Shown here one piece after another: positions 26,403 to 49,326 of a stretch of 64,000 nucleotides of DNA. The notes under the pieces were generated by a model, which had not been told where the DNA came from, searched no databases, and saw only the letters and a program-made list of their open reading frames with translations. This DNA is from Caulobacter segnis ATCC 21756 (GTDB lineage: Bacteria; Pseudomonadota; Alphaproteobacteria; Caulobacterales; Caulobacteraceae), in the NCBI RefSeq assembly GCF_000092285.1, contig NC_014100.1:3968001-4032000 (forward strand). The letters run 5' to 3'. The translations under genes and the position numbers were made by a program. Within the stretch, counting starts at the first letter, position 1, and each line of letters opens with the position of its first letter.

Positions 26403-26416
26403 TTGCTGCGATGCAA
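26403..26416. promoter_or_regulatory. TGC-rich element upstream of ecm
   Basis: TTGCTGCGATGCAA, a near-palindrome with core TGCGATGCA (26407-26415), matching the family TGCGNYGCA seen at ccr, etfBA and hbd. The rest of the 26346-26750 gap contains a LacI-type operator near its right end and otherwise no gene. Confidence 0.5.
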
Positions 26417-26724
26417 TATCCATTTCGCGGGTGCGGGAGACCGTCGGCGCGCCGCCGGAAGCGCGCTTTCCCGCCTCAACTAGGCCGACAAATGCGGATT
26501 GCCCGAACGCTGTTCCGGGGATAAGTCCTATGGCGGGCGGCCGATAACTCGGCACGGCCATTTGTAATACTCGTACAAGATAGCGATCGAAGCCCGGCCT
26601 CACCGCGCCGGCGCGCGGTTCGCCAAAAGCGCTAAACGCCTGTCACCCCGCAAAGGCGGCGGCCGGCCAAGACGACACACCCAGACCGGTGACCAGACCC
26701 CACCGCTGGGCGAACGATAAAAAT

Positions 26725-26738
26725 TGTTACCGGTAACA
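26725..26738. promoter_or_regulatory. LacI-family-type operator for the GH9 gene
   Basis: TGTTACCGGTAACA is a perfect 14-base palindrome with the central CG typical of LacI/GalR operators. It ends about two bases before the GGAGGA ribosome-binding site of the GH9 gene, so bound repressor would block initiation or early elongation. No LacI gene is in the window, so the regulator must be encoded elsewhere. Confidence 0.75.
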
Positions 26739-26750
26739 GGGAGGAATGAG

Positions 26751-29234
26751 ATGCGAAGGACCACCGCCGCGGCGCTGTACATGGCCGCGTGCTCGATGCT
26801 GGCGATCACCGCCGCCCAGGCCCAGACGCCGCGCGTCAGCCCGGACCAGACGCTGGAAGCCCCCGGCCTCAGCGTGATCGTCGAGCAGAACCACTTCAGC
26901 CCGATCTTCTTCGACGAGAAGAACGCCGGCATCCAGATCGTCCTGCATGGCGAGCGGATCGCCACCGACGGCGAGGTCCGGCTCAACCCGACGCCCGAGC
27001 AATGGGACCCGGTGCCGATGTTCGGCGAGCGGACCCTGGGCGACGGCGGCCAGATCGTGGTGCGCTCCAGCTATCCCAAGGAGAAGCTGAACTACCGCGT
27101 GAAGGTGACCCCCGAGGACGGCGGCTTCCGCGTCGCGGTGGATCTGGACGCGCCCCTGCCGCCGGAGCTGGTCGGCAAGGCCGGCTTCAACCTCGACTTC
27201 CTGCCGACCGCCTATTTCGGCAAGACCTATCTGATGGGCGACAAGCCCGGCCTGTTCCCGCGCAATCCGAACGGCCCGATGGCGACGGATGGCTCCGGCG
27301 ATCCGCTGCCGATGGCGGCGGGCGCGAACAGCGTGACCCTGTCGCCGGAAGACCCGACCACCCGCGTCACCATCACCGCCAACGCGCCGCTGGCGATCTA
27401 TGACGCCCGAAACCGCGCCCAGAACGGCTGGTTCGTGGTGCGCTCGATGATCGCCGCTGGCGCCAAGGACGACGCCGTCGTCTGGCACGTGCGGCCCAAC
27501 ATGATCCCCGGCTGGACCCGCGCCCCGGTCGTGTCGTTCAACCAGGCGGGCTACACGCCAGGACGGAGCAAGGTCGCGCTGATCGAGCTGGACCCGGCGT
27601 TCAAGGCGCCGGCCGAGGCGACCCTGGTCAAGCTGACCGACAAGGGCGAGAAGCCGGTGTTCAAGGCGGCCGTCCAGTCGCGCGGCAAGTGGCTGCGCCA
27701 CAACTACGCCGCCTTCGACTTCTCCAGCGTGCGCGAGCCCGGGATCTACGCGATCTCTTACGCGGGCCAGACGACCAACCCCTTCCCGATCGCGGCCGAC
27801 GCCTATGCGCGGATCTGGCAGCCCTCGCTCGACACCTATCTGCCCGTACAGATGGACCACATGACGGTGCGCGAGCAGTACCGGGTGTGGCAGCGCGCCT
27901 CGCATCTGGACGACGCGGTGCAGGCCCCGCCCAACATCGTCCACTTCGACGGCTATCGCATGGGTCCCAATCTCGACTCTCCGTTCAAGCCGGGCGAGCA
28001 CATCCCGGGCCTGGCGGTCGGCGGCTTCCAGGACGCCGGCGACTACGACATCCAGACGCCGCAGAACGCCCAGGTCGTGCGCGACCTCGTTTGGGCGCGC
28101 GAGCTGTTCGGGCTGGACTGGGACGAGACCAGCGTCGACGAGAAGGCCCGCGAGGTCGAGATCCGCAAGCCGGACGGCGTTCCCGACGCCCTGCAGCAGG
28201 TCCGCCACGGCGTCCTGCAGCTGCTGGCCCAGTACAAGGTCTTCGGCCACTCGATCGTCGGCATCGTCGATCCGAAGCTGCGCCAGTACGTCCACCTGGG
28301 CGACGCCGGCTCGCAGACCGACGGCAAGATCCACGATCCGGCGCTCGGGCCAAACGAGGTCAAGGGCGACCGCTCGGGCGCGACCGACGACCGTTGGGCG
28401 TTCACCACCGCCTACCCGGCCAACGACCTGATGGTGGCCGGCAGCCTAGCGGCCGCCAGCCGCGCCTTGAAGGACTCCGATCCGGCGATGTCGGCCGAGG
28501 CGCTCGCGGCCGCCAAGGCCCTGTGGTCGGCGCGCGAGGGCCAGACCGGCAACAGCAGCGACGGGCGCGACGACAGCGGGCCCATGGCGCGGTTCCTCGA
28601 CCTGGCCAAGGTCGCCGCGACGGTCGAGCTGGTCATCACCACCAACGGCGATCCGGTCTATACGAAGCGACTGAGCGCCCTGCCCCCCGCGATCGAAGCC
28701 AACTTCGACCGTGTCAGCGGCCCCGCCGTGCGCGCGATCCCCTACATGGACGCGGCCTACAAGGCGCGGATCCGGACCCTGGTGGCCGGCGTCAAGCCGA
28801 AGATCGACAAGGAGCTGGCGGGCAATCCGTTCGGCGTGCCGATCAGCATGGGGTCGTGGGCGGGCTCGGGCGAAGTCGCCGGCTTCGGCGCCAACATGTA
28901 CCTGATGCACAAGGCGTTCCCGGACCTGATCGGGCCGGAACACACGCTGCACGCGCTGGACTACATGCTGGGCCGCCATCCGGCGAACAACCTGTCGCTG
29001 GTCTCGACCGTCGGCACGCGCTCGAAGCTGAACGGCTACGGCCATAACCGCGCCGACTACGGCTTCATCCCCGGCGGCATGGCGCCCGGCGTGCTGGTCA
29101 TCAAGCCGGACTTCCCGGAGATGATCACCGACTGGCCGTTCCTGTGGTTCGAGAGCGAATACACGGTGGGCAGCGCCACGGCCTATATCCTGGCCGCCAA
29201 GGCCGCGATCGCGGCCACCGAGGACAAGCGCTAG
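26751..29234 (+). CDS. Glycoside hydrolase family 9 (cellulase/glucanase-like), secreted
   Basis: The 827-residue protein has a Sec signal peptide (MRRTTAAALYMAACSMLA, cleavage after AQA). An N-terminal beta-sandwich follows, including the cellulase Ig-like segment VVSFNQAGYTPGRSKVALI. A large (alpha/alpha)6 catalytic domain completes it: DAGDYD near residue 430 supplies the catalytic base region, and a Glu near 800 (FLWFESEY) is the likely acid. GH9 enzymes cleave beta-1,4-glucans or oligosaccharides; a periplasmic exo-acting role fits the Ig-GH9 layout. It lies between ethylmalonyl-CoA genes but has its own sugar-type operator, so its presence there is probably incidental. Confidence 0.92.
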   Translation: MRRTTAAALYMAACSMLAITAAQAQTPRVSPDQTLEAPGLSVIVEQNHFSPIFFDEKNAGIQIVLHGERIATDGEVRLNPTPEQWDPVPMFGERTLGDGGQIVVRSSYPKEKLNYRVKVTPEDGGFRVAVDLDAPLPPELVGKAGFNLDFLPTAYFGKTYLMGDKPGLFPRNPNGPMATDGSGDPLPMAAGANSVTLSPEDPTTRVTITANAPLAIYDARNRAQNGWFVVRSMIAAGAKDDAVVWHVRPNMIPGWTRAPVVSFNQAGYTPGRSKVALIELDPAFKAPAEATLVKLTDKGEKPVFKAAVQSRGKWLRHNYAAFDFSSVREPGIYAISYAGQTTNPFPIAADAYARIWQPSLDTYLPVQMDHMTVREQYRVWQRASHLDDAVQAPPNIVHFDGYRMGPNLDSPFKPGEHIPGLAVGGFQDAGDYDIQTPQNAQVVRDLVWARELFGLDWDETSVDEKAREVEIRKPDGVPDALQQVRHGVLQLLAQYKVFGHSIVGIVDPKLRQYVHLGDAGSQTDGKIHDPALGPNEVKGDRSGATDDRWAFTTAYPANDLMVAGSLAAASRALKDSDPAMSAEALAAAKALWSAREGQTGNSSDGRDDSGPMARFLDLAKVAATVELVITTNGDPVYTKRLSALPPAIEANFDRVSGPAVRAIPYMDAAYKARIRTLVAGVKPKIDKELAGNPFGVPISMGSWAGSGEVAGFGANMYLMHKAFPDLIGPEHTLHALDYMLGRHPANNLSLVSTVGTRSKLNGYGHNRADYGFIPGGMAPGVLVIKPDFPEMITDWPFLWFESEYTVGSATAYILAAKAAIAATEDKR

Positions 29235-29280
29235 CGGGAAGACCAGGTCGCCACGGGCACCGCCGTGGCGACCGCCCCCG

Positions 29281-30012
29281 TCAACGCCCCTCGAACACCG
29301 CCGCGCGCTTGCCGATGAAGGCCGCGCGGGCCTCGGCGTGATCGGCGCTGGCGGCCAGCGCCGGGATTTCGGCGACGGTCTTCGACACGCCCGACGCCAC
29401 CCGCTTGGTCGCCGCGACGGCCAGCGGTCCCCGCGAGGCGATCGTCCGCGCCATGCCCAAGGCCGCGTCCCGCAGATCCGCCGCCGGGTGGACCTCCGCC
29501 ACCAGCCCGTCCGCCAGCGCCCGCGCCGCGTCGAACGGGGCGCCGGTCAGCAGGTGGACCTTGGCGCGACTCTCGCCGATCAGCTTGACCAGCCGCTCGG
29601 CCGAGGCCGTCAGGCCCATCCGGACCGCAGAGCACGCGAGGCTGGCGCGGTCGCTGGCCAGGCGGATGTCGGCGGCCAGCGCCAGCTCCAGCCCGCCGCC
29701 GATGCACCAGCCGTCGATCGCCGCGATCACCGGCTGCGGGCAGGCCGCGATCCGGTCGCACATCTCAAGGAAGTTCAGGATCGCCGCCGTCTGGGCCGCG
29801 ACGTCGCGGGTCAGGGACTCGGCGAGATCATCGCCGGTGCAGAAGGCGCCGTTGCGGCCCGTCAGCACCACCGCCCGCACCACCGGATCGGCCTCGATCG
29901 CGGCGAAGGCGTCGAGCAGCCGCGCGCGCTCGGACAGGGCCAGGACATTGGCGGGGGCGACGTCGAGCTCGACGAGCGCGATCGAAGGGTCGGGATGGGA
30001 CAGATGGATCAT
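29281..30012 (-). CDS. Enoyl-CoA hydratase/isomerase family protein
   Basis: A 243-residue crotonase-fold protein with the oxyanion-hole region GAFCTGDDL and GWCIGGGLELALAADIRLA, the latter keeping the first catalytic Glu. The second Glu usual in hydratases is not seen (ACSAVRMGLTA), so the activity may be isomerase, hydrolase or something else. Start at MIHLSHPDP. It is divergent from ccr, sharing a 259-base intergenic region with two TGC-rich elements, and so may be coregulated. Confidence 0.88.
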   Translation of the reverse strand: MIHLSHPDPSIALVELDVAPANVLALSERARLLDAFAAIEADPVVRAVVLTGRNGAFCTGDDLAESLTRDVAAQTAAILNFLEMCDRIAACPQPVIAAIDGWCIGGGLELALAADIRLASDRASLACSAVRMGLTASAERLVKLIGESRAKVHLLTGAPFDAARALADGLVAEVHPAADLRDAALGMARTIASRGPLAVAATKRVASGVSKTVAEIPALAASADHAEARAAFIGKRAAVFEGR

Positions 30013-30078
30013 CGCCGCGCACCGTGACGCGCCCGGGCGGCCGCCGCAACCTTTCCGCCACGGCGCCCGCGAGACCGA

Positions 30079-30093
30079 TGCTGCGGCGCACAA
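30079..30093. promoter_or_regulatory. TGC-rich element 1 between ech and ccr
   Basis: TGCTGCGGCGCACAA with core TGCGGCGCA (30082-30090), almost identical to the element upstream of etfBA. Confidence 0.45.
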
Positions 30094-30240
30094 GATTCCG
30101 CTTGCCAGTTTCAAACATCTGTCTCAGCGTAGGGGTCTTCCGGGCGGAAAATTGCGCCAGGGAGCCAAAAACGACCCGGAGGGGAGGTGTTTTTCACGCC
30201 TTTACCGCCCGGGCGCGCAGCCGAGTTTGGCCTTCACGCG

Positions 30241-30256
30241 TTGTTGCAGCGCAGAA
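30241..30256. promoter_or_regulatory. TGC-rich element 2, just upstream of ccr
   Basis: Plus strand TTGTTGCAGCGCAGAA, minus strand CTGCGCTGCAACAA, core TGCGCTGCA (30245-30253). It lies 16 bases before the ccr start and would overlap the transcript start or ribosome-binding region, a position suited to repression. Confidence 0.5.
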
Positions 30257-30271
30257 GGAACGGGGAGTGAG

Positions 30272-31546
30272 ATGACGACGCAGACGCTGGCGAAGACCGA
30301 GCTGAAGGACCTGTACGAGATCGGTGAGATCCCGCCGGCCTTCCACGTGCCGAAAACCATGTACGCCTGGAGCATCCGCAAGGAGCGCCACGGCCCGCCG
30401 TCCACGGCCATGCAGGTCGAGGTGGTTCCCACCTGGGAGATCGGCGAGGACGAGGTGCTGGTCCTCGTGATGGCCGCGGGCGTCAACTACAACGGCGTCT
30501 GGGCCGCGCTCGGCGAGCCGATCAGCCCGCTGGACGGCCACAAGCAGCCCTACCACATCGCCGGGTCCGACGCCTCGGGCATCGTCTGGAAGGTCGGCGC
30601 CAAGGTGAAGCGCTGGAAGCTGGGCGACGAGGTCGTCATCCACTGCAATCAGGACGACGGCGACGACGAGGAGTGCAACGGCGGCGACCCGATGTTCTCG
30701 CCCAGCCAGCGGATCTGGGGCTACGAGACGCCGGATGGCAGCTTCGCCCAGTTCTGCCGCGTCCAGTCCCGACAATTGCTGCCGCGTCCCAAGCACCTGA
30801 CCTGGGAAGAGGCCGCCTGCTACACCCTCACCCTCGCCACCGCCTACCGCATGCTGTTCGGCCACAAGCCGCACGAGCTGAAGCCCGGCCAGAACGTGCT
30901 GGTGTGGGGCGCGTCCGGCGGTCTGGGCGTCTTCGCCACCCAGCTGGCCGCCGTCGCCGGCGCCAACGCCATCGGCGTGGTCTCCTCCGAGGACAAGCGC
31001 GAGTTCGTGCTGTCGATGGGCGCCAAGGCGGTGCTGAACCGGGGCGACTTCAACTGCTGGGGCCAGCTGCCCAAGGTCAACGGCCCCGAGTTCAACGACT
31101 ACATGAAGGAAAGCCGCAAGTTCGGTAAGGCCATCTGGCAGCTCACCGGCAATCGCGACGTCGACATGGTGTTCGAGCACCCGGGCGAGCAGACGTTCCC
31201 GGTCTCGGTCTTTCTGGTCAAGCGCGGCGGCATGGTCGTGATCTGCGCCGGCACCAGCGGCTTCAACCTGACCATGGACGCCCGCTTCCTGTGGATGCGC
31301 CAGAAGCGCGTGCAAGGGTCCCACTTCGCCAACCTGATGCAGGCCAGCGCCGCCAACCAGCTGGTCATCGACCGCCGCGTCGACCCGTGCCTGTCGGAAG
31401 TCTTCCCCTGGAACGACATCCCGGCCGCCCACGAGAAGATGCTGGCCAACAAGCACCTGCCCGGCAACATGGCCGTGCTCGTCAGCGCCCAACGCCCGGG
31501 TCTCCGGACCTTCGAGGAGGTGCAGGAGCTGAGCGGCGGGCTGTAG
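30272..31546 (+). CDS. ccrA: Crotonyl-CoA carboxylase/reductase
   Basis: The 424-residue protein belongs to the medium-chain dehydrogenase superfamily, with NADPH-binding segment WGASGGLGVFATQLA. The diagnostic Ccr features are VNYNGVWAALGEP, IWGYETPDGSFAQF and QGSHFANLMQA; the Asn and His in these contribute to CO2 binding as I recall from Ccr structures. It reductively carboxylates crotonyl-CoA to ethylmalonyl-CoA, the committed step of the ethylmalonyl-CoA pathway, which replaces the glyoxylate shunt. The ATG follows GGGGAG. The longer in-frame upstream extension runs through the divergent gene and is spurious. Confidence 0.95.
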   Translation: MTTQTLAKTELKDLYEIGEIPPAFHVPKTMYAWSIRKERHGPPSTAMQVEVVPTWEIGEDEVLVLVMAAGVNYNGVWAALGEPISPLDGHKQPYHIAGSDASGIVWKVGAKVKRWKLGDEVVIHCNQDDGDDEECNGGDPMFSPSQRIWGYETPDGSFAQFCRVQSRQLLPRPKHLTWEEAACYTLTLATAYRMLFGHKPHELKPGQNVLVWGASGGLGVFATQLAAVAGANAIGVVSSEDKREFVLSMGAKAVLNRGDFNCWGQLPKVNGPEFNDYMKESRKFGKAIWQLTGNRDVDMVFEHPGEQTFPVSVFLVKRGGMVVICAGTSGFNLTMDARFLWMRQKRVQGSHFANLMQASAANQLVIDRRVDPCLSEVFPWNDIPAAHEKMLANKHLPGNMAVLVSAQRPGLRTFEEVQELSGGL

Positions 31547-31637
31547 AAGACCGAGCGCGCTAGATTACAAATCTAAAACCCCCATTGCCATCGCCGCGCG
31601 ACGCCTCCAGCATGCCGGCGAGGGCATGGGGGACACT

Positions 31638-32837
31638 ATGGCGAAGGATCGGATCGTCCTGTTGGACGCGCTGCGGGGCCTGGCGATCCTGGGCATCTTC
31701 CTGTGCAACATCCCGCTGGTCTTCGCGCCCGAGATCGTCGCCGAGAGCATACCGTTCTGGCCGCACGGCCAATCCCCGGCCAGCCTGACGGTCTGGTGGG
31801 TCACACAGGTGTTCTTCCAGCAGAAGTTCTACACGCTGTTTGGCCTGCTGTTCGGCGCCTCGATCCTGCTGGTCGGCGGCGAGGGCGGCGACCGCGATCG
31901 CACGGTGATGATCGTCAAGCGCCTGCTGGCGTTGCTGGCGATCGGCCTCTTCCACGGCTTCGTCATCTGGCAGGGTGACGTGCTGTGGACCTACGCCTCG
32001 GTGGGCCTGATCGCCCTTTTGGTGCGGGGCTGGAGCGCGCGCCGCCTGCTGACGGCGGGGATCCTCATCCACCTGGGGATCAACGGCTGGCAGTTCTGGC
32101 GGCAACTCAGCCGCGCCGCGCAGTTCGCCACGCCCTTGCCGCCCCAGGTCGTCGCCCGCGTCACGCGGGAGGCCCAGGCCGAAACCCTCGCCTTCACCGG
32201 CGATTTCACCAGCTCGCTGGCCCGCACCGGCCATAACTATTGGGAGTTCGTCAGCAGTTCGTGGCAACGCGTCCCAACCTGGCCGCTGATCGTGCTGGGT
32301 CTGATCCTGATGGGCATGGGTCTGTTCAAGTCAGGCCTGCTGAAGGGCCAGTCCGCGCCAACCGTCTACAAGGCGCTGGTGGCCGTGGGGCTTTCAGCCC
32401 AGGCGCTGGTGGCGGCGGTCATGACGCTGTTCCTGGTCGTTCCCTCGCACCCCGGCGGCCTGGGCGGCCTGGCCCACTGGATGCAGAGCGTCACCGCGCC
32501 CGTCGTCAGCCTCGGCTATCTGGGCCTGCTGGTCCTGGCGGCGAACGCCAAGGTCTGGCGGACGATCCCCGCCCTTCTGGCGCCGGTCGGCCAGATGGCC
32601 TTCACCAACTACATCTTCGAGTCGCTGGTCATGACGACCCTGGCCTTCGGCGGCCGGGGCCCCGTGCTCTACGGGAAGCTGGACCGCCCGGCCTTGGCCG
32701 CCATCGTCGTCGCCACCTGGGCCTTCCAGATCCTGGCCTCGCGTTGGTGGCTGAAGCGCTTTTCCATGGGCCCGCTGGAATGGGTCTGGCGCCTGGCCTA
32801 TCGCGGCCCGACGCCGTTGCGGCGCAAGGTCGCCTGA
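31638..32837 (+). CDS. DUF418 family multipass membrane protein
   Basis: The roughly 400-residue protein has about nine to ten hydrophobic helices. It begins KDRIVLLDALRGLAILGIFL, the N-terminal signature shared by DUF418/acyltransferase-3-like membrane proteins, and ends with the DUF418 C-terminal part (FTNYIFESLVMTTLAF, GPLEWVWRLAYRG). Function is unknown; a transport or acyl-transfer role is guessed for the family. I prefer the ATG at 31638, four bases after GGGGGA; 31626 is an alternative start. Confidence 0.86.
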   Translation: MAKDRIVLLDALRGLAILGIFLCNIPLVFAPEIVAESIPFWPHGQSPASLTVWWVTQVFFQQKFYTLFGLLFGASILLVGGEGGDRDRTVMIVKRLLALLAIGLFHGFVIWQGDVLWTYASVGLIALLVRGWSARRLLTAGILIHLGINGWQFWRQLSRAAQFATPLPPQVVARVTREAQAETLAFTGDFTSSLARTGHNYWEFVSSSWQRVPTWPLIVLGLILMGMGLFKSGLLKGQSAPTVYKALVAVGLSAQALVAAVMTLFLVVPSHPGGLGGLAHWMQSVTAPVVSLGYLGLLVLAANAKVWRTIPALLAPVGQMAFTNYIFESLVMTTLAFGGRGPVLYGKLDRPALAAIVVATWAFQILASRWWLKRFSMGPLEWVWRLAYRGPTPLRRKVA

Positions 32838-32983
32838 TCGTTCGACGACGCCCTCGCCGGCCGGCCGCGAGGACCGATGGGAAGCGCTTTACCAAATACT
32901 CAACTCCGACTGGCATGATCCGAGCGTCTCGCCCCGCGGGCTCATAGGGGGCGACCTCGGTTGCGCGAGACGGAGGCAAGAAC

Positions 32984-33202
32984 ATGCCTATCTCCATCGA
33001 CAGCCTGGTTTCCATCGTCCAGTCGGGCGGCGGGTTCGAAATCGACGCCAAGAAGTATTCCGCGGCCGTTCTGTTGCCGTTCATCGGCCAGATGAACCAA
33101 GGCGCCGTGCTGCGCGTGCGCAACGCGACCGCCTGGAAGGTCGAAGACGTCATCGCCGTGGCGCGCACCGCGCCTCCCGGAGTCGCCCAGTTCGTGTTCT
33201 AG
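32984..33202 (+). CDS. Small hypothetical protein (72 aa)
   Basis: MPISIDSLVSIVQSGGGFEI continues with KYSAAVLLPFIGQMNQGAVL. A GGAGG ribosome-binding site lies eight bases upstream. No signal peptide or membrane segment. Similar length and mix to small conserved alphaproteobacterial proteins, but I do not recognise the family. Confidence 0.6.
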   Translation: MPISIDSLVSIVQSGGGFEIDAKKYSAAVLLPFIGQMNQGAVLRVRNATAWKVEDVIAVARTAPPGVAQFVF

Positions 33203-33234
33203 GCGCTGGGAGCCAGACAAGGCGGCGTCGAGGC

Positions 33235-33546: not shown

Positions 33547-33670
33547 GTCCCGAGTTTGAGGCCGCTCCGGACCCCCGTGCGTCGGAAACGTGCGTTTTCC
33601 TTTAATCCATTGATTACGAAGCGCTTTATCCCGAAAAGTACGGGCGTTGAGGCGCTCGCCTCCGCGACCC

Positions 33671-35261: not shown

Positions 35262-35320
35262 GCGACACGCCGCAGCACGATTGTCGCATTGCTCCGCCAC
35301 AAGAGCTCCGGAACACGCCG

Positions 35321-38497: not shown

Positions 38498-38512
38498 GTT
38501 GCAGCGCGGCAT
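38498..38512. promoter_or_regulatory. TGC-rich element upstream of mcd
   Basis: Plus strand TGTTGCAGCGCGGCA; on the minus strand CCGCGCTGCAACA, which matches ccr element 2 (CTGCGCTGCAACA) at 12 of 13 positions. The core has one mismatch (CGCGCTGCA). Located between gst and mcd, 83-97 bases before the mcd start. Confidence 0.4.
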
Positions 38513-38594: not shown

Positions 38595-40289
38595 ATGACC
38601 ACGACGATCGCGCGCGATAACGCTGAGAACCTCGTCCTCCCAGGCCTGATCGGCCTGCTGCGCGAGGCCGCCGACGCGGCGGGACTGTTCGTGGCCGAAG
38701 CCAAGCCCGCTGTCCTGGCTCACATCGCCCCGGAAGGCGGAAAGGTCGACCGCAAGCTGGCCGACGTCCACCAGCACCGCGTCCACGGCTATGGCTGGTA
38801 CGCCGCCTATGCCGAGCTCCTGAACCAGGTCGCCGGCTGGGCCGAGCGGCTGCAGGACGAAGGCCGCTTCGGCGAGATCGAGGCCCTGCTGGCCCAGCTG
38901 CTGTTCTCGGAATACTGCGCCCAGCTGGTCGGCGGCGTGCCGATGAACCAGGGCGAGATCGTCCGTCCGGCCCATCTGGTCGAGGACCGCGCGGTGCTGA
39001 ACCGGCTCTACTCCAACGGCCTGATGAAGCTGATGGTCGAGGGCGGCACGCAAGCCGTCAAAAGCCGGATCGCCCAGCGCCTGGCCGAGGCGCGCGGCCG
39101 GCCGACGCTGGAGAACACCGGCCTCGACGAGACCTTCGAGATGATCCGCGACCAGTTCCACGCCTTCGCCGAGGAAAAGGTCACGCCCTTCGCCCACGAA
39201 TGGCACCTGAAGGACGAACTGATCCCGATCGAGCTGGTGGAGGAACTGGGCGAACTGGGCGTCTTCGGCCTGACCATCCCCGAGGAATATGGCGGCTCCG
39301 GCATGGGCAAGACCGCCATGTGCGTGGTGTCCGAGGAGCTCTCACGGGCCTGGATCGGCGTCGGGTCGCTCGCCACCCGCTCGGAGATCGCCGGCGAGCT
39401 GATCCTGACCGGCGGCACCGACGCCCAGAAGGAATACTGGCTGCCCAAGATCGCCAGCGCCGAGATCCTGCCGACCGCCGTCTTCACCGAGCCGAACACG
39501 GGCAGCGACCTCGGCTCCCTGCGAACCCGCGCCGAGCTGAAGGGCGACCAGTACGTGGTGACCGGGAACAAGACCTGGATCACCCACGCCGCCCGCGCCG
39601 ACGTCATGACCCTGCTGGTCCGCACCGAGCCGGGCACCACCGACTATCGCGGCCTGTCGATGCTGCTGGCCCCCAAGCCGCGCGGGACCGACGAAGCCCC
39701 CTTCCCAGCCGAAGGCATGAGCGGGGGCGAGATCCAGGTGATCGGCTATCGCGGCATGAAGGAGTACGAGCTGGGTTTCGACGGCTTCACCGTGCCGGCC
39801 GAAAACCTGCTGGGCGGTGTCCCGGGCCAGGGCTTCAAGCAGCTGATGGCCACCTTCGAGAGCGCCCGCATCCAGACCGCGGCCCGCGCCGTCGGCGTCG
39901 CTCAGGCGGCGCTGGAGACCGGCCTTGGCTATGCGCTCGATCGCCAGCAGTTCGGCCAGGCGATCTTCGAGTTCCCGCGCGTGGCCAACAAACTGGCGAT
40001 GATGGCGGCCGAGATCATGGGCGTGCGCCAGCTGACCTACTACGCCGCCCGCCAGAAGGACGAGGGCAAGCGCTGCGACCTCGAGGCCGGCATGGCCAAG
40101 CTGATCGCCGCCCGCGTCGCCTGGGCCGCCGCCGACAACGCCCTGCAGATCCACGGCGGCAACGGCTTCGCCATGGAATACGCCGCCAGCCGCCTGCTGG
40201 CCGACGCCCGGATTCTCAACATTTTCGAAGGCGCTGGCGAGATCCAGGCCCAGGTGATCGCGCGGAGGCTGCTGGACGGCGGGAACTAG
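38595..40289 (+). CDS. mcd: (2S)-methylsuccinyl-CoA dehydrogenase
   Basis: A 564-residue acyl-CoA dehydrogenase with an extra ~170-residue N-terminal helical extension before the core (DETFEMIRDQFHAFAEEKV); this is characteristic of Mcd in the ethylmalonyl-CoA pathway. FAD and substrate segments AVFTEPNTGSDLGSLRTRAE, GNKTWITHAARAD and QIHGGNGFAMEY are intact. It oxidises methylsuccinyl-CoA to mesaconyl-C1-CoA, passing electrons to ETF. The start at MTTTIARDN follows AGGGGAGC. The assignment over a generic acyl-CoA dehydrogenase rests on the extension and on ccr and ecm being nearby. Confidence 0.9.
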   Translation: MTTTIARDNAENLVLPGLIGLLREAADAAGLFVAEAKPAVLAHIAPEGGKVDRKLADVHQHRVHGYGWYAAYAELLNQVAGWAERLQDEGRFGEIEALLAQLLFSEYCAQLVGGVPMNQGEIVRPAHLVEDRAVLNRLYSNGLMKLMVEGGTQAVKSRIAQRLAEARGRPTLENTGLDETFEMIRDQFHAFAEEKVTPFAHEWHLKDELIPIELVEELGELGVFGLTIPEEYGGSGMGKTAMCVVSEELSRAWIGVGSLATRSEIAGELILTGGTDAQKEYWLPKIASAEILPTAVFTEPNTGSDLGSLRTRAELKGDQYVVTGNKTWITHAARADVMTLLVRTEPGTTDYRGLSMLLAPKPRGTDEAPFPAEGMSGGEIQVIGYRGMKEYELGFDGFTVPAENLLGGVPGQGFKQLMATFESARIQTAARAVGVAQAALETGLGYALDRQQFGQAIFEFPRVANKLAMMAAEIMGVRQLTYYAARQKDEGKRCDLEAGMAKLIAARVAWAAADNALQIHGGNGFAMEYAASRLLADARILNIFEGAGEIQAQVIARRLLDGGN

Positions 40290-41979: not shown

Positions 41980-41988
41980 GGACCCGCT

Positions 41989-42597: not shown

Positions 42598-42750
42598 GCA
42601 CGTCCCCCTCGAACACGCCAGCGTCATGATTGACTTCGAAGACGGCCCCATCCCCCCCGGAACGGGATCGTCGATCGCTAGAGTCCGCCCCTTTGTGATG
42701 GAAACACCACAAAGGAATAACCTGGCTCTATCCCAAATACTTAGAGCGTT

Positions 42751-42786
42751 GCGGAGGCCGAAAACGCTACCGTTTTCGGCTTCCGC
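42751..42786. terminator. Long hairpin between two TetR genes
   Basis: GCGGAGGCCGAAAACG and CGTTTTCGGCTTCCGC form 16-bp arms (one mismatch) around CTAC. No long T run follows, so it could be a terminator, an RNA-processing stem or a repeat. It starts 6 bases past the upstream TetR stop. Confidence 0.5.
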
Positions 42787-42791
42787 GAGCC

Positions 42792-43439
42792 CTAGGCGCG
42801 AGCGCCCGCGAGAATGATCTTCAGTTGATTCGAGAGACGCTCCAGAAGAGCATCGACCGACCAACCGTCATAAACCGCGCGACGATAGTTGGCGAGATAC
42901 ACGTCCCAGATGATTTCCGCCAAGAGCTTGGCGTCAACATCGGCCTTGAGCTGCTTTTGCTCGACGCCGCGCTGCAGCGCCTCGTCGATCAACTGGAAGA
43001 GATGCTTGAGTTCGGTGCGCGCGCGACGCTCGGCGGCTTCCGAACGGGTCCAGGAGACCGCGATGCTGGCGCGCAGCAGCGGCAATTGCTCGACATGGAA
43101 GCTGTAGGCGACGCCGAACAGACCCATCAGCGCCTCGTCCACCGTCTTGGCGGTGCGGGCGGCCTGGTTCATCTGGGCGTGGATGACTTCGTGGTCGGCG
43201 GTCAGGATCTCTTCGAACAGCTCCGACTTGTCGGCGAAGCTGGCGAAGACGGCGCCGGTCGACATGCCAGCGGCCTGGGCGATGTCACGGATGGTCGCGC
43301 CCTCATAGCCACGCTCGCTGAACAGGCGGCGCGCGGCGGCCAGGACGCGTTCGCGCGTGCGCTGCTTGGCCAGCGCGCGGCGGGTCAGTTTCACCGGGGC
43401 CTCGAGGCCCTGATCGATATTGACGGATACGAAGCTCAT
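42792..43439 (-). CDS. TetR family transcriptional regulator
   Basis: A 215-residue TetR protein with helix-turn-helix RVLAAARRLFSERGYEGATI followed by RDIAQAAGMSTGAVFASF. Its ATG overlaps the stop of the preceding small coiled-coil gene by four bases (ATGA), so the two are translationally coupled. Ligand and targets unknown. Confidence 0.9.
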   Translation of the reverse strand: MSFVSVNIDQGLEAPVKLTRRALAKQRTRERVLAAARRLFSERGYEGATIRDIAQAAGMSTGAVFASFADKSELFEEILTADHEVIHAQMNQAARTAKTVDEALMGLFGVAYSFHVEQLPLLRASIAVSWTRSEAAERRARTELKHLFQLIDEALQRGVEQKQLKADVDAKLLAEIIWDVYLANYRRAVYDGWSVDALLERLSNQLKIILAGARA

Positions 43440-43666
43440 GCGGCGGCCTCCAGGCGGGCGAGAGCGGCTTCCGCCCGCTTCTCGAATTCGGTGCAATATT
43501 CATCGACGACGTTCTGAAGAACGTCGGCGTAACGGCGGGCCAGCTGGCGGCCGTCCTGCGCGGCGTCGCGCAGATCGGTGATCAGCTGGCGAACTTCGGC
43601 TAGGGCCTCTTCACGCTCGAAAGCGGAAGACTCGGCGAGGTCCACAGAGCGGGCGCTCTGAGCCAT
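43436..43666 (-). CDS. Small coiled-coil hypothetical protein (76 aa)
   Basis: MAQSARSVDLAESSAFEREE continues as an almost entirely charged helix (ALAEVRQLITDLRDAAQDGR) ending in EKRAEAALARLEAAA. No membrane segment. It is coupled to the TetR gene by a four-base overlap, suggesting a functional partnership. Family not recognised. Confidence 0.65.
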   Translation of the reverse strand: MAQSARSVDLAESSAFEREEALAEVRQLITDLRDAAQDGRQLARRYADVLQNVVDEYCTEFEKRAEAALARLEAAA

Positions 43667-43983
43667 GCGGTCATCTCCTACCCCCGCTGGGGTCAGTGAA
43701 AGCGTTGCACGATCCGCGGTGGGGGAGGTTGATCGTGTTCAACGAACGCAGACTACTAAATAGGAAGCGCGGGCATTAACGCCAGCAGAACGCGTTTGCA
43801 ACTGCGAAATCAGTGTCCAGACGCGTAAGTAAACGCGCTCAACCTAGGTATGTGAACGTTACCATTGCGTCACTGCGACATTTTGCCCGCCGAACGGGTT
43901 CGCCGAACAGATTCAACAGACGGTGGTTTACGCGATCGACCACCGCTATGGCGCGCGGCGTCGCGAGCCCTTATTCTGAGACC
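43667..43983. other. Intergenic region, 317 bases
   Basis: Divergent promoter region between the coiled-coil/TetR operon and the HIG1-domain gene. It contains a TTAAC half-site (CATTAACGCC) and GATTC sites but no gene or hairpin that I can support. Confidence 0.6.
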
Positions 43984-44187
43984 ATGTCCCACCTGTTCGA
44001 CTTTCTCGTCCCAGCCGCCCTTCTGGCGGTGCTGATCGCCCTGGGCGCGGGCCTTTACGCGCTGTTCCGCGGGGGCGACTTCGGGCGCTCGTACTCCAAC
44101 AAGCTGATGCGGCTGCGGGTGCTCCTGCAGTTCATCGCCATCATCGTCCTGGTCGCCGCCGCGTTCTGGTGGCGGAAGGGCGCTTGA
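43984..44187 (+). CDS. HIG1-domain twin-transmembrane protein
   Basis: A 67-residue protein with two hydrophobic helices and the intervening basic motif SNKLMRLRVLLQFIAI, the HIG1_N signature (RxxNxLMRxRVxxQ). Bacterial HIG1-type proteins associate with cytochrome oxidases. It starts 48 bases before the cobalamin adenosyltransferase gene, possibly as an operon. Confidence 0.88.
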   Translation: MSHLFDFLVPAALLAVLIALGAGLYALFRGGDFGRSYSNKLMRLRVLLQFIAIIVLVAAAFWWRKGA

Positions 44188-44235
44188 GGCTCGCTCGCTA
44201 GATAACGCCACTCAGGGAACGAGAGTCCGCGACGG

Positions 44236-44814
44236 ATGGTCACGCTGAACCGCATCTACACGCGCACCGGCGACGCCGGCTCGACGCGCCTGGCGACGGG
44301 AGCGCCGGTCAGCAAGGCTTCGCAACGGGTCGAGGCCTACGGCGGCGTGGATGAGACCAACGCCGCGATCGGACAGGCGCGACAGCATACCGCAGGCGAT
44401 CCGGTGCTCGACGCCATCCTCGAGCGCGTCCAGAACGACCTCTTTGACCTGGGCGCCGACCTCGCCACGCCCGAGCAGCACGAAAAGCCGGAATGGGAGC
44501 CGCTGCGCATCCTCGACAGCCAGGTCGAGCGGCTGGAGGGCGAGATCGATCTTCTGAACGCCGAGCTCTCGCCGCTGACCTCGTTCGTCCTGCCGGCCGG
44601 CTCGCCAGCCGCCGCCGCCCTGCATGTGGCCCGCACCGTCTGCCGGCGCGCCGAGCGCAGCTGCGTGGCGCTGATGACCATAGAGGGCGAAATCGTCGGA
44701 GCGCCCGCGATCAAGTACCTGAACCGGCTGTCGGACCTGCTGTTCGTCGCGGCCCGTTGGGCCAACGACAAGGGCAAGGCGGACGTGCTGTGGAAGCCGG
44801 GCGCGACGCGGTAG
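44236..44814 (+). CDS. PduO-type cob(I)alamin adenosyltransferase
   Basis: A 192-residue protein with the N-terminal family motif IYTRTGDAGSTRL, the helix VEAYGGVDETNAAIG, and CRRAERSC and YLNRLSDLLFVAARWAN near the C-terminus. All are conserved ATP- and cobalamin-binding segments of PduO-type enzymes. It makes adenosylcobalamin, the cofactor of ethylmalonyl-CoA mutase and methylmalonyl-CoA mutase. No cobalamin riboswitch precedes it. Confidence 0.94.
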   Translation: MVTLNRIYTRTGDAGSTRLATGAPVSKASQRVEAYGGVDETNAAIGQARQHTAGDPVLDAILERVQNDLFDLGADLATPEQHEKPEWEPLRILDSQVERLEGEIDLLNAELSPLTSFVLPAGSPAAAALHVARTVCRRAERSCVALMTIEGEIVGAPAIKYLNRLSDLLFVAARWANDKGKADVLWKPGATR

Positions 44815-44820
44815 GGCGGA

Positions 44821-45087
44821 CTATTTCTTGGGCTGGGCCGCCGGAGCCGTCGTCGGCGCGGCCGCCGCCTCGCCATTGATCGGCGGGGTGTTGGGCGGGC
44901 GGCGGGTCAGGGTCTCGATCGGATAGACCGTGGCGCACTTCATCCACTTGCCGGCCCAGGCGCCGCCGCGGTCCTCGCAACGCTGCTTCGGCCAGACCCA
45001 CAGGCCGTGATAGGCCAGGACGCTGGCGCTGGAGAGCAGGAACAGGCCCAGGAAGATGTACTTCAGGCGGGTGAAGGTCTTGTTCAT
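44821..45087 (-). CDS. Small membrane-anchored hypothetical protein (88 aa)
   Basis: One N-terminal transmembrane helix (YIFLGLFLLSSASVLAYHGL), then a short periplasmic part with two cysteines (QRCEDRGGAW and WMKCATVYP) that could form a disulfide, and a proline/alanine-rich tail. Convergent with the adenosyltransferase gene. Function unknown. Confidence 0.65.
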   Translation of the reverse strand: MNKTFTRLKYIFLGLFLLSSASVLAYHGLWVWPKQRCEDRGGAWAGKWMKCATVYPIETLTRRPPNTPPINGEAAAAPTTAPAAQPKK

Positions 45088-45223
45088 GGCCGGCCCCTTA
45101 GCGCCTTTCCGTCCTTAAGGGAATGAGCCGCGCGCCCTCCCGCGTACACGAGCGCGCGCAATGCCTACGATCGTTTGAACCCGCGCAGCAATAACGCATT
45201 ACGCTTACGCCAAGGGAAACTTG

Positions 45224-45238
45224 CATTGCGGCGCACAA
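45224..45238. promoter_or_regulatory. TGC-rich element upstream of etfBA
   Basis: CATTGCGGCGCACAA with core TGCGGCGCA (45227-45235), matching ccr element 1 and the typA element. It lies about 60-70 bases before the etfB start, inside the 208-base intergenic region, which holds no other gene. Confidence 0.5.
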
Positions 45239-45295
45239 GCGCTAAGTCGATTGGCAAGCAGGAGAAAACGCAAAACCTGGAGGCGGTGAAAACCG

Positions 45296-46042
45296 ATGAA
45301 GGTCCTAGTCCCGGTCAAGCGGGTGATCGATTACAACGTGAAGGCCCGCGTGAAGGCGGACCAGACGGGTGTCGACCTCGCCAACGTCAAGATGTCGATG
45401 AATCCGTTCTGCGAGATCGCGGTCGAAGAAGCCGTGCGTCTCAAGGAAAAAGGCGTGGCGACCGAGGTCGTCATCGTCAGCATCGGCCCCGCCCAAGCCC
45501 AGGAGACGATCCGCACGGCGCTCGCCATGGGCGGCGATCGCGGGATCCTGATCACCTCGGACGCCGACCTCGAGCCGCTGGCCGTGGCCAAGCTTCTGGC
45601 CGCCGTGGTCGCCGAGGAGAACCCCAACCTCGTCGTGATGGGCAAGCAGGCGATCGACGGCGACAACAACGCCGTCGGCCAGATGCTGTCGGCCCTGCTG
45701 GGCTGGCCGCAGGCCACCTACGCTTCGGCCCTCGAAGTGTCGGGCTCGACCGCCAAGGTCACCCGTGAAGTCGACGGCGGCCTCCAGACCCTGGACGTCG
45801 ACCTGCCGGCCGTGGTCACCGCCGACCTGCGCCTGAACGAGCCGCGCTATGCGTCTCTGCCCAACATCATGAAGGCCAAGAAGAAGGAAATCGCGAGCAA
45901 GACGGTCGCCGACTACGGCGTCGACGTCGCGCCGCGCCTGAAGGTCCTGAAGGTCACCGAGCCCGCCAAGCGCTCGGCGGGCGTCAAGGTCGAGACGGCC
46001 GCTGACCTGGTCTCCAAGCTCAATACCGCGGGGGTGCTGTAA
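45296..46042 (+). CDS. etfB: Electron transfer flavoprotein beta subunit
   Basis: A 248-residue EtfB: begins [16 protein letters not shown], carries [20 protein letters not shown], the AMP-binding [15 protein letters not shown] and the recognition loop for dehydrogenases near [18 protein letters not shown]. With EtfA it takes electrons from acyl-CoA dehydrogenases, including Mcd, to ETF-quinone oxidoreductase. GGAGG lies upstream. The stop overlaps the etfA start (TAATG). Confidence 0.97.
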
Positions 46043-46983
46043 TGGCTGTTCTCGTCGTCGCCGATAACGACAACGCGCACCTGCGCGACGCGACCCACAA
46101 GACCGTTACCGCCGCCCTGAAGATCTCGGGCGACATCGACGTCCTGGTCCTGGGCAAGGGCGCCAAGGCCGTGGCCGACGCCGCCGCCAAGATCGCCGGC
46201 GTCCGCAAGGTGCTGCTGGCCGAGTCCGACGCCCTGGGCCACGGGATCGCCGAAGCCCAGGCCGACGCCGTTCTGGCGCTGGCCGGCAATTACGACGCGA
46301 TCCTGGTTCCGGCCACCTCGGGCGGCAAGAACTTCGCCCCGCGCGTCGCCGCCAAGCTGGACGTCGCCCCGATCTCGGACATCGTCGAGGTCGTCAGCGC
46401 CGACACCTTCACGCGCCCGATCTACGCCGGCAACGCGCTGGAGACGATCCAGTCCAGCGACGCCAAGAAGGTGATCACCGTCCGTCCGACCGCCTTCGCG
46501 GCGGCGGCGGAAGGCGGCTCGGCCTCGGTGGAGAGCGTCGCTGGCGCTGACGCCGGCAAGACCCGCTTCGTCAGCGAAGAGATGGTCAAGTCCGACCGTC
46601 CGGAACTGGCCGCGGCCAAGATCGTCGTCTCGGGCGGCCGCGCCATGGGTTCGGCCGAAGAGTTCCAGCGGGTCATCGAGCCTCTGGCCGACAAGCTGGG
46701 CGCCGCCGTGGGCGCCTCGCGCGCCGCGGTCGACGCCGGCTACGCCCCGAACGACTACCAGGTCGGCCAGACGGGCAAGGTCGTGGCGCCGCAGCTCTAT
46801 GTCGCCATCGGCATTTCGGGCGCGATCCAGCACCTGGCCGGCATGAAGGACTCCAAGGTGATCGTGGCGATCAACAAGGACGCCGACGCGCCGATCTTCC
46901 AGGTGGCCGACTTCGGCCTGGTCGCCGACTACAAGACGGCCGTGCCGGAGCTGATGGACGCCCTGACCGCCGCCGGCAAGTAA
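46042..46983 (+). CDS. etfA: Electron transfer flavoprotein alpha subunit
   Basis: A 313-residue EtfA, whose C-terminal FAD domain contains [54 protein letters not shown] and [16 protein letters not shown]. It overlaps etfB by one base, indicating coupled translation. An intrinsic terminator follows, so etfBA is a two-gene operon with its own promoter. Confidence 0.97.
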
Positions 46984-47007
46984 GCCGCCGCGCGAACGCA
47001 CAGAACG

Positions 47008-47037
47008 AAGGCCCGGAGGCGACTCCGGGCCTTTTTT
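47008..47037 (+). terminator. Intrinsic terminator of etfBA
   Basis: Stem AAGGCCCGGAG/CTCCGGGCCTT with loop GCGA and a T run (TTTTTT). Confidence 0.9.
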
Positions 47038-47059
47038 CGTGCGTCGGACATCGACGCCG

Positions 47060-47182
47060 CTAGCGGATGGTGACGATGGGCTTGGCCCAGGCGGCGTGCG
47101 GGTCGGACAGGCTCGGCGAGTGGCTCGCGGCGGTGGACGCCAGGGCGAGCAGCAGCGCGCCCGCGATCAGCAGGGTCTTCAT
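47060..47182 (-). CDS. Small secreted peptide (40 aa)
   Basis: Begins MKTLLIAGALLLALASTAAS, a typical signal peptide, leaving a mature peptide of about 20 residues (HSPSLSDPHAAWAKPIVTIR). A GAGG ribosome-binding sequence precedes the ATG. It is divergent from a LysR gene, suggesting control by it. Confidence 0.5.
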   Translation of the reverse strand: MKTLLIAGALLLALASTAASHSPSLSDPHAAWAKPIVTIR

Positions 47183-47316
47183 GGTTCGGTCCTCGATGGG
47201 TCTTGGGACGATGATGAGCGGCGCCGCGAGGGAGAACATGCCTTCGCCGGGGCCGCTTTGCGAACGATGCTATTTGTGAGAGCTTGTGAGCCTAACTAAC
47301 AACCTCATGGGCGACG

Positions 47317-48198
47317 ATGCGCCTTCCGCCCTTCTCCTCCCTGGTCGCTCTGGAGGCCGCCGCCCGCCACAGGAGCTATAGCCGAGCGGCGGATGAGCTG
47401 TTCGTGACCCATGGCGCGGTCAGCCAGCAGGTCCGCAAGCTCGAGGACGAGCTGGGAGTCCAGCTGTTCACCCGGCGCGGCAACCAGATGGAGCCGACAC
47501 CCACCGGGGCGGCCCTGGCCGAGCAGGTCCGCGCGGCGATCGACACCTTGCGTCGCGGCGTCGAGACCGCTCGCCGGGCGGCCAGCGGGCCGATCGTGAT
47601 TTCCGCCGGCCCGGCTTTCGCCACCAGCTGGCTGTCGCCCCGCCTGGCGCGGCTGTCGGCCGAGACGGACGAGCTGGACCTCACCATCCGGGTGGAGGAC
47701 CGCGTTTCGGACCTGGCCACCGACGGCGTCGATGTCGCCCTTCGTTACGGAGTGGGCCCTTGGGCGGGCATGGAGTCGGTGCGGTTGATGGACGAGCGCA
47801 TCTTTCCGGTCTGCAGCCCCGCGCTGCTGGCTCGCTTCCCCATCGCAGGTCCCGAGGATCTTCTTTCGGCGCCGCTGCTGCGTCATACGGACCTGCCTTG
47901 GTCGGTGTGGTTCCGCGCCATGGGGATCGAGCCGCCGGAGCTTCGGCCGGCGCTGGGGTTCGACGGCTCGGCCATGATGCTGGACGCCGCGGCCCAAGGC
48001 CTGGGCTTCGCGCTGGCGCGGGGCGGCTACGCCCAGCGTGACATGGACGCGGGTCGGCTGGTGCGCCCGTTGCCGGGATCGATCGACGTCGAGACCGGCC
48101 ATAATTTCGTCTGGCGCGCCGAGAACCCCAAGCTGCCGCGCATCCTGAAGCTGCGGGACTGGTTCCTGGAGGCGACGAAGGACGACCGGAAGGCCTGA
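47317..48198 (+). CDS. LysR-type transcriptional regulator (GcvA-like)
   Basis: A 293-residue regulator with the GcvA-type N-terminus LPPFSSLVALEAAARHRSYS and helix-turn-helix RAADELFVTHGAVSQQVRKL, followed by the effector domain. Divergent from the small secreted peptide gene. Its targets are unknown; an autoregulated pair with the divergent gene is possible. Confidence 0.93.
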   Translation: MRLPPFSSLVALEAAARHRSYSRAADELFVTHGAVSQQVRKLEDELGVQLFTRRGNQMEPTPTGAALAEQVRAAIDTLRRGVETARRAASGPIVISAGPAFATSWLSPRLARLSAETDELDLTIRVEDRVSDLATDGVDVALRYGVGPWAGMESVRLMDERIFPVCSPALLARFPIAGPEDLLSAPLLRHTDLPWSVWFRAMGIEPPELRPALGFDGSAMMLDAAAQGLGFALARGGYAQRDMDAGRLVRPLPGSIDVETGHNFVWRAENPKLPRILKLRDWFLEATKDDRKA

Positions 48199-48251
48199 GA
48201 CGGCCGCCGCATTTGCCCCGGCGGCGAAAATCCCGCATATCCCCGCGCCTC

Positions 48252-49292
48252 ATGTCCCCCGCAAAGACCCTCCGCGACGTCCGGTCCCTGGCCGAGGCCG
48301 GCCTGATACCGTCCGAGCGCCTTGCGGCGCTGGAGGCGGTGGCGGCGCGCTACGCGGTGGCGGTGACGCCGGCCATGGCCGAACTGATCGATACCGCCGA
48401 TCCGAACGACCCGATCGCCCGCCAGTTCGTCCCCGCGCCCGAGGAGCTGGTCGCCAGCCCCGGCGAGGACGGCGATCCGATCGGCGATTCTATCCACAGC
48501 CCTGTGGATGGAATCATCCATCGCTATCCCGACCGCGTGCTGCTGAAACCCACCCACACCTGCGCCGTCTATTGCCGGTTTTGCTTCCGCCGCGAGATGG
48601 TCGGGCCCGAGGGCCTGTCGAACCTGACGCCGGCTCAGCTGGACGCGGCCTTCGCGTACATCGCCGCCCGGCCCCAGATCTGGGAGGTGATCGTCACCGG
48701 CGGCGACCCGTTCGTCCTGTCCTCCCGCCGTCTGGCGGCGCTGATCGACCGTCTGGAGGCGATCGAGCACGTCAAGGTCGTGCGCTTCCACACCCGCGTG
48801 CCGGCCGTCGATCCCGCCCTCGTCACCGACGACCTGGTGGCGGCGCTGAAGCGCTCGACCAAGGCCGTCTATGTCGCCCTGCACGCCAACCACGCCCGCG
48901 AGCTGACCCCGGCCGCCCGCGCGGCCTGCGCCCACCTGGTCGACGCCGGAATCGCCATGGTCAGCCAGACCGTGCTGCTGAAGGGCGTCAACGACGATCC
49001 CGAGACACTGTCGGCGCTGATGCGCGCCTTCGTCGAGACACGGATCAAGCCCTACTACCTGCACCATGGGGATCTCGCCCCCGGCACCGCCCACCTGCGC
49101 ACCACGATCGAGGACGGCCAGGCGATCATGCGCGCCCTGCGCGGGACGCTGTCGGGCTTGGCCCAGCCGACCTATGTGCTCGACATCCCCGGCGGCCATG
49201 GCAAGGCGCCGGTGGGGCCAAGCTATCTGTCCGCGGGCGGGGTCGAGGATCCGAACGGACGCCGGCACGCCTATCCGCCGGCCGCCGACTGA
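48252..49292 (+). CDS. KamA/EpmB-family radical SAM lysine 2,3-aminomutase-like protein
   Basis: A 346-residue radical SAM enzyme with CxxxCxxC in KPTHTCAVYCRFCFRREM, the SAM motif VTGGDPF and a PLP-lysine-type sequence DIPGGHGKAPV near the C-terminus. It lacks the long extension of classic lysine 2,3-aminomutase, so the EpmB-like (EF-P lysylation) subgroup is likely, but no epmA or efp is adjacent. Start at MSPAKTLRDV; the in-frame TTG upstream adds a basic leader without support. Confidence 0.85.
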   Translation: MSPAKTLRDVRSLAEAGLIPSERLAALEAVAARYAVAVTPAMAELIDTADPNDPIARQFVPAPEELVASPGEDGDPIGDSIHSPVDGIIHRYPDRVLLKPTHTCAVYCRFCFRREMVGPEGLSNLTPAQLDAAFAYIAARPQIWEVIVTGGDPFVLSSRRLAALIDRLEAIEHVKVVRFHTRVPAVDPALVTDDLVAALKRSTKAVYVALHANHARELTPAARAACAHLVDAGIAMVSQTVLLKGVNDDPETLSALMRAFVETRIKPYYLHHGDLAPGTAHLRTTIEDGQAIMRALRGTLSGLAQPTYVLDIPGGHGKAPVGPSYLSAGGVEDPNGRRHAYPPAAD

Positions 49293-49312
49293 GGCGAATG
49301 GCCGCCCTTCGT

Positions 49313-49326
49313 TTGCGACGCAGCAA
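49313..49326. promoter_or_regulatory. TGC-rich element upstream of hbd
   Basis: Plus strand TTGCGACGCAGCAA, minus strand TTGCTGCGTCGCAA, differing from the ecm element TTGCTGCGATGCAA at two positions. Core TGCGACGCA (49314-49322). It lies about 100 bases before the hbd start. Confidence 0.5.

Follow-up and report, generated by a model that had tools for sequence, protein, structure and literature searches.

The PhaR (AniA) sites described for Sinorhizobium meliloti include phasin and mmgR promoters tested by electrophoretic mobility shift assay (EMSA), and according to the available text of that study mmgR is bound by PhaR (PMC12542648). With respect to the ethylmalonyl-CoA (EMC) pathway, the accessible part of a 2023 study on Paracoccus denitrificans states that the mechanism of its upregulation “remains enigmatic” and excludes two ScfR proteins; the deletion of the PccR and MccR homologues left the ccr reporter pattern unaltered, and PhaR is not mentioned there (PMC10370305). 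The present analysis concerns palindromes of the form TGC-N3-GCA located upstream of dispersed EMC pathway genes in a stretch of 64,000 nucleotides (the window) that comprises positions 3,968,001 to 4,032,000, or 1.4%, of the 4.66 Mb single-contig genome of Caulobacter segnis ATCC 21756. Based on the sequence analysis these palindromes are likely operators of PhaR, a transcription factor that senses polyhydroxybutyrate (PHB) and is predicted to control EMC pathway, granule and B12-supply genes in the genus. PHB stores probably help to set the EMC pathway. The regulator itself is of a known kind, and the novelty lies in the genes that it is predicted to target.

PhaR-type boxes in the window and in the genome

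A preliminary description of the window had listed the core TGCGNYGCA upstream of ecm, ccr (twice), etfBA and hbd, and all of these sites are in place (26407, 30082, 30245 on the minus strand, 45227 and 49314), as is the copy with one mismatch upstream of mcd, which reads CGCGCTGCA(ACA) on the minus strand. The agreement of the flanking sequences quoted for ecm and hbd and for the second ccr site and mcd was found to be correct on re-reading. The short core was also expected to have chance matches, and it occurs 19 times in the window compared to 10.1 expected occurrences, a count that was equalled by 4 of 100 shuffles. Being only about twofold over chance, the plain 9-base core was rejected as sufficient evidence.

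The window was furthermore scanned with the 12-base PhaR consensus of Bradyrhizobium (TGCRNYGCASMA), which was derived from another organism and is independent of the C. segnis genome. Eight matches representing seven distinct sites (one matching on both strands) were detected, whereas the order-2 and order-3 Markov background models (60 simulations each) predicted 0.30 and 0.55 matches, respectively, with a largest simulated count of 3. The Poisson p-value of this excess is 1.3e-7 for the eight matches and 1.9e-6 for the seven sites. The window holds 8 of the 47 matches in the genome, corresponding to a binomial p-value of 2.5e-7 if the matches are treated as independent. On the present gene calls seven of the eight matches are intergenic, and the eighth (58168) is located at the start of the called MaoC open reading frame (ORF). 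The alignment to relatives begins at the GTG at 58203, and with this codon as the start of the MaoC gene the box becomes an upstream box.

The sites are located upstream of ecm, ccr (two sites), etfBA, hbd and the MaoC hydratase gene, or in the region that separates typA from an mmgR-family small RNA (sRNA), which appears as a conserved block in the alignment of the genus. The two boxes beside the sRNA (5421 and 5552) and the box at 58168 are additional to those described previously. Since the sRNA adjoins both boxes at 5421 and 5552, typA was rejected as their sole owner.

The genome contains a single PhaR match, scoring 166.5 bits against TIGR01848 (cut-off 109.45), and one match to PF07879, and the PhaR family was matched in 37 of the 41 genomes that were compared. 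No solved structure for PhaR was found by sequence at an E-value of 0.001. The PhaR-type targets that carry the box in C. segnis comprise two phasin genes, the phaR/phaAB gap and the mmgR-family sRNA. The box motif also matches the PhaR sites reported in the accessible text on Sinorhizobium, among them the phasin and mmgR promoters that were tested by EMSA, so that the mmgR-family sRNA with a box abutting its -10-like element provides a built-in positive control. Support for the earlier proposal of a PhaR-type regulator that coordinates the dispersed pathway units comes from the identity of the motif with the published consensus of Bradyrhizobium and Sinorhizobium, from the one PhaR match above its cut-off and from the presence of the box at PhaR-type targets.

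In the complete genome the 47 matches correspond to 41 distinct sites, compared to 20 for the reversed motif. By judgement, 18 of the 41 sites but only 3 of the 20 control sites are located upstream of genes (Fisher p 0.023); if sites up to 45 codons from a 5' end are also counted as upstream, the numbers change to 21 of 41 and 8 of 20. This comparison by itself gives modest support, and the identity of the upstream genes is the stronger point. The upstream sites outside the window, which were found unselected, include those of two phasin genes, one encoding PhaH (NF045508) and the other a Phasin_2 gene that carries two boxes, as well as those of mutAB, the operon for methylmalonyl-CoA mutase, and of a CitE/malyl-CoA-lyase-like gene. 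A further site separates cobU from a gene for a btuB-like receptor (genome positions 2167381-2170217), and a cobalamin riboswitch (126 bits) follows 6 nt after the end of its core. The phaR/phaAB gap contains a match to the core and lacks the full 12-mer.

Upstream sites without an obvious link were detected in an acyl-CoA ligase/histidine kinase gap, at dus/ispDF, in an exbB-side gap and at a phosphoesterase gene. At genome position 890241 a box matches the 12-mer on both strands, and no downstream gene or RNA family was identified; a search of this region against Rfam at a lax threshold gave one match only, far below its gathering score.

Conservation of the boxes in relatives

Conservation was assessed in 41 genomes by scanning, in gene orientation, the 350 bp before each orthologue, with at most 30 loci per gene. 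Three loci without upstream sequence (L089 for ccr, L167 for etfB and L240 for typA) were left out of the counts, and the counts outside the genus are those for all loci minus those for the genus. The strict core was detected at 29 of 29 ccr loci, 29 of 30 ecm loci and 24 of 30 hbd loci as well as on the typA/mmgR side (23/29), at etfB (11/29) and at mcd (10/30). The reversed core occurred in the same upstream regions twice at ecm, once each at hbd and etfB and not at all at ccr, mcd or on the typA side. Among control stretches taken at these six sets of loci, 2 of 174 after stop codons and 1 of 180 inside genes contained the core.

Within the genus the strict core is present at 21/21 ccr, 22/22 ecm, 23/24 hbd and 23/23 typA-side loci, and outside the genus it was found at 8/8 ccr and 7/8 ecm loci. 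A lack of the sites in related Caulobacter promoters had been named beforehand as evidence against a shared operator. The counts clearly contradict such a lack at ccr, ecm and hbd and in the mmgR region, and at mcd for the relaxed form only: in the genus the mcd box is kept in a degenerate form (relaxed 21/22, strict 6/22). The proximal ccr box (30245) is partly conserved in the genus (relaxed 9/21, strict 5/21). Upstream of mutA, for which 20 of the 35 relatives' loci were taken, the genus shows the strict core at 10 of 17 loci and the relaxed form at five more, and the btuB core was found at 16 of 18 genus loci. The strict core precedes etfB at 9 of 22 genus loci, a count that leaves out one locus (L179) without the core, and there is turnover of the sites from lineage to lineage. 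In part of the genus it is TGCATTGCG at 45222 that keeps its place, and not the core at 45227 with which it overlaps.

A comparison of all 64 half-site words at fixed spacing and centre put TGC in first place at five genes (ccr, ecm, hbd, etfB and typA); at mcd it led by a single locus (10 versus 9). As the alignments show, conserved boxes vary in their R-N-Y centre but not in the two half-sites TGC and GCA.

Two genomes of the genus (G012 and G023, the latter being 83% complete) appear to contain neither ccr nor a close ecm at the thresholds used. Homologues of hbd, mcd and btuB are kept in both of them, with the box still present at hbd and btuB.

The breadth of the ccr box was assessed in an alphaproteobacterial set made up of the best 80 of 589 ccr relatives, which provided 79 usable upstream regions. 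The strict core was detected in 62 of these regions, compared to a Markov expectation of 4.3, and in 5 of 80 coding stretches used as a control. Within this set the core is present at 33 of 49 loci outside a Caulobacterales group, which was roughly drawn and includes Hyphomonadaceae and some unplaced records, at four of eight usable Methylobacterium loci and at three of five Bosea loci. Furthermore, 450 bp upstream of ccr were inspected in 10 of the 26 plasmid records with this gene. All five Paracoccus copies carry the relaxed box TGCGCYGCG at -48 to -54, and the strict box is located at -51 in Ruegeria and at -64 in Methylobacterium aquaticum.

Proposed regulation and alternative explanations

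At low PHB levels PhaR would presumably occupy the boxes. With acetyl-CoA in ample supply and PHB granules being formed, the granules would attract PhaR and the promoters would change their state, most likely by derepression of the EMC, phasin, mmgR and B12-uptake genes. PHB, which is made from acetoacetyl-CoA and 3-hydroxybutyryl-CoA, would in this way signal that the same intermediates are available to Ccr, Ecm, Mcd and Mcm for biosynthesis. The box between cobU and btuB would join the B12 supply to the B12-dependent mutases of the EMC pathway. Repression is probably the sign of the regulation, because the mmgR and btuB boxes are located on or next to the probable transcription start.

Chances appear about even that PhaR is the long-sought general EMC regulator in the Alphaproteobacteria, with PHB titrating PhaR and thereby gating acetyl-CoA assimilation, in Caulobacter also B12 uptake for the two mutases, and that the mmgR sRNA extends this switch to the post-transcriptional level. 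The conserved ccr operator, including its relaxed form in the Paracoccus plasmid copies, makes PhaR a testable candidate for the “enigmatic” upregulation of the EMC pathway. If true, carbon storage, C2 assimilation and B12 supply would be joined in one circuit, and this would matter for the engineering of PHB or of EMC-derived dicarboxylic acids.

An even scatter of the sites over coding and non-coding DNA, which the preliminary description had regarded as contradicting its proposal, was not seen in the comparison of upstream sites with the reversed motif, yet the margin is moderate, and 23 of the 41 sites are located inside coding sequence. Several results weigh against the assignment of the boxes to PhaR. 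Outside the genus the strict core is mostly or wholly missing at hbd (1/6) and on the typA side (0/6), it is present at only 4 of 8 mcd loci, and it was found at none of four loci each for mutA and btuB. The etfB sites move. The mcl-like gene carries the strict core at 3 of 24 genus loci and 3 of 30 loci overall and the MaoC box was found at 6 of 30 loci, and among the half-site words TGC reached rank 6 at mcl and rank 29 at MaoC, where the box lies just outside the tested stretch. Due to their low frequencies the mcl and MaoC boxes were rejected as core members of the regulon, and the sites at etf, mcl and MaoC are lineage-specific and not widely conserved.

Also on this side of the balance, none of the five Methylocystis/Methylocystaceae ccr loci among the best 80 of 589 relatives carries the core, and no box was detected within 450 bp of the plasmid-borne ccr of M. 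rosea (Methylocystis), Bradyrhizobium sp. 62B and Burkholderia arboris. Boxless ccr loci of Methylocystis/Methylocystaceae are L388, L390, L394, L402, L405 and L461. As an idea only, a boxless ccr in methylotrophs might fit a pathway that has to run regardless of PHB there. A search of the PhaR literature by term gave no mention of ethylmalonyl in the available texts and none of crotonyl in part of them, including the accessible main text on S. meliloti (PMC12542648). The available accounts of M. extorquens phaR mutants list other gene classes; the same source cites earlier work in Methylobacterium that dealt with PhaR and the partitioning of acetyl-CoA (PMC6520949). A report of PhaR acting on EMC genes was not noticed in the literature, the coverage of which was mostly open access and partial, so that one may exist.

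According to a variant of the main explanation, PhaR binds to the boxes but mainly activates the EMC genes at low PHB, and the EMC pathway declines as PHB accumulates. We consider this possible, if rather unlikely. The hbd box ends 8 nt before a conserved pair of elements, TTGGCG (49331-49336) and GCTAGA (49354-49359), which look promoter-like by eye, and this activator-like position makes activation at hbd possible. The same tentative reading may apply to ccr, with the box upstream of a -35-like element. The PhaR of R. eutropha reportedly acts as both a repressor and an activator, which would also speak for activation. In the phaR mutant of B. diazoefficiens the expression of pckA and pdhA falls according to the accessible text (PMC6201568). 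The location of the mmgR and btuB boxes, directly at or beside the region where transcription probably starts, argues against activation as the main mode.

The boxes could also be real operators of another regulator with a TGC palindrome resembling the PhaR motif, such as a CcrR-type TetR regulator, a ScfR/PccR-type regulator or another factor. The EMC-linked regulators named in the literature, as far as available, are CcrR, PccR and RamB and not PhaR. In addition, a 197-aa ORF that appears TetR-like by eye (with no NCBIfam match at the threshold used) was detected beside two boxes at genome positions 4128873-4128983. However, the box is also present at the phasin genes, at phaR/phaAB and at mmgR, which are PhaR-type targets, and another regulator as the owner of the boxes therefore seems improbable. 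The PccR-type motif consists of two TTTGCAAA-like boxes arranged as TTTGCAAA-N4-TTTGCAAA. Since this form of the motif has no match in the window at up to three mismatches, the ScfR/PccR motif was rejected as the identity of the boxes.

Finally, a short GC-rich palindrome falling near pathway genes by chance, as might be suggested by the excess of only about twofold of the 9-base core and by the coding position of 23 of the 34 distinct 12-mer sites outside the window (and of most control sites), is extremely unlikely and already contradicted by the conservation, the half-site and breadth counts and the control stretches. At ccr, ecm, hbd and typA 79-100% of the loci have the core in their upstream region, compared to about 1% of the control stretches, and for ccr it is far more frequent in the broad alphaproteobacterial set than in its coding control.

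Gene assignments and comparison with known systems

The genes of the window (Table 1) were chosen via ORF length and GC content by codon position without a gene caller, and their names were taken from family scans. The starts of the MaoC gene, the phasin genes and other genes with sites near their 5' end are judgement calls. The specific name ecm was assigned by context, a separate mcm being present elsewhere in the genome. The best solved relative of the mcd product, 6es9, was deposited as an acyl-CoA dehydrogenase, and a further one, 8ciw (280 bits), is named (2S)-methylsuccinyl-CoA dehydrogenase. EtfBA is likely to serve as the electron acceptor for Mcd.

Table 1. Predicted PhaR-type boxes and associated genes in the window (positions refer to the window).
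Feature	Position	Strand	Basis or remark
mmgR/suhB-family (aR8) small RNA	5314..5389	-	Rfam RF00519, 63.8 bits (gathering 41), E 8e-11
PhaR-type box TGCGACGCA	5421..5429		abuts TATAAA-like -10 (minus strand, 5412-5417) of the sRNA promoter; -10 by eye
PhaR-type box TGCGCCGCA(CAA), between sRNA and typA	5552..5560		12-mer scan
ecm, ethylmalonyl-CoA mutase (methylmalonyl-CoA mutase family; name by context)	24357..26351	-	NF006944, 528 bits, below cut-off 876
PhaR-type box upstream of ecm	26407..26415		minus strand TGCATCGCAGCA, 26415 to 26404
Distal PhaR-type box upstream of ccr, TGCGGCGCACAA	30082..30090		core and 12-mer scans
Proximal PhaR-type box upstream of ccr	30245..30253		core and 12-mer scans
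ccr, crotonyl-CoA carboxylase/reductase	30272..31546	+	TIGR01751, 667.8 bits, over cut-off, on longer ORF
Degenerate PhaR-type box upstream of mcd	38500..38508		TGCAGCGCG on + strand
mcd, methylsuccinyl-CoA dehydrogenase	38595..40289	+	best solved relative 6es9, 733.5 bits
Overlapping boxes upstream of etfBA	45222..45235		TGCATTGCG (45222-45230) and TGCGGCGCA (45227-45235)
etfB and etfA, electron transfer flavoprotein	45296..46983	+	ETF models, below equivalog cut-offs
PhaR-type box upstream of hbd	49314..49322		core and 12-mer scans
hbd, 3-hydroxybutyryl-CoA dehydrogenase	49427..50305	+	NF005715, 546.5 bits, over cut-off
PhaR-type box TGCAACGCACAA	58168..58176		begins 35 nt before probable MaoC hydratase start
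MaoC-family (R)-specific enoyl-CoA hydratase (PhaJ/CroR-like)	58203..58625	+	5cpg and 1iq6, solved relatives, carry the name (R)-specific enoyl-CoA hydratase

A gene predicted to encode a cob(I)alamin adenosyltransferase of the PduO type (44236-44814) is located close upstream of etfBA, and the window scan detected no strict core before it. A large ORF (26751-29234), which is divergent from ecm and without NCBIfam matches, borders the same region as the ecm box.

Among the regulators linked to the EMC pathway, CcrR of Methylorubrum extorquens AM1 reportedly activates an EMC pathway gene and, unlike PhaR, is said to belong to the TetR family. PccR and RamB of the ScfR family are similar to the regulator proposed here in that they regulate propionyl-CoA or glyoxylate-cycle genes tied to the EMC pathway, whereas RamB differs in using two boxes 18 bp apart, as far as the available text describes them (PMC10370305).

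The sRNA of the window belongs to the same family as mmgR and the aR8 sRNAs of C. crescentus, which are called SisA-D and were the subject of a 2025 study whose main text, in its accessible part, does not mention PhaR (PMC12559287). The box at the promoter of the mmgR-family sRNA suggests that the Sis sRNAs of C. crescentus may answer to PhaR as well.

The PhaR regulon of B. diazoefficiens shares with the C. segnis boxes the 12-base consensus, and two of its phasin promoters were footprinted; it differs in that tables 2 and 3, within the available part of the study, name no EMC enzyme gene (PMC6201568). The PhaR (AniA) regulon of S. meliloti resembles that predicted for C. segnis in its palindrome YGCRNYGCR, its phasin and mmgR targets and the weak binding at phaR/phbAB. 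According to the accessible text its direct targets also include exopolysaccharide and central carbon genes (PMC12542648), whereas the set predicted for C. segnis contains the EMC pathway and B12 uptake.

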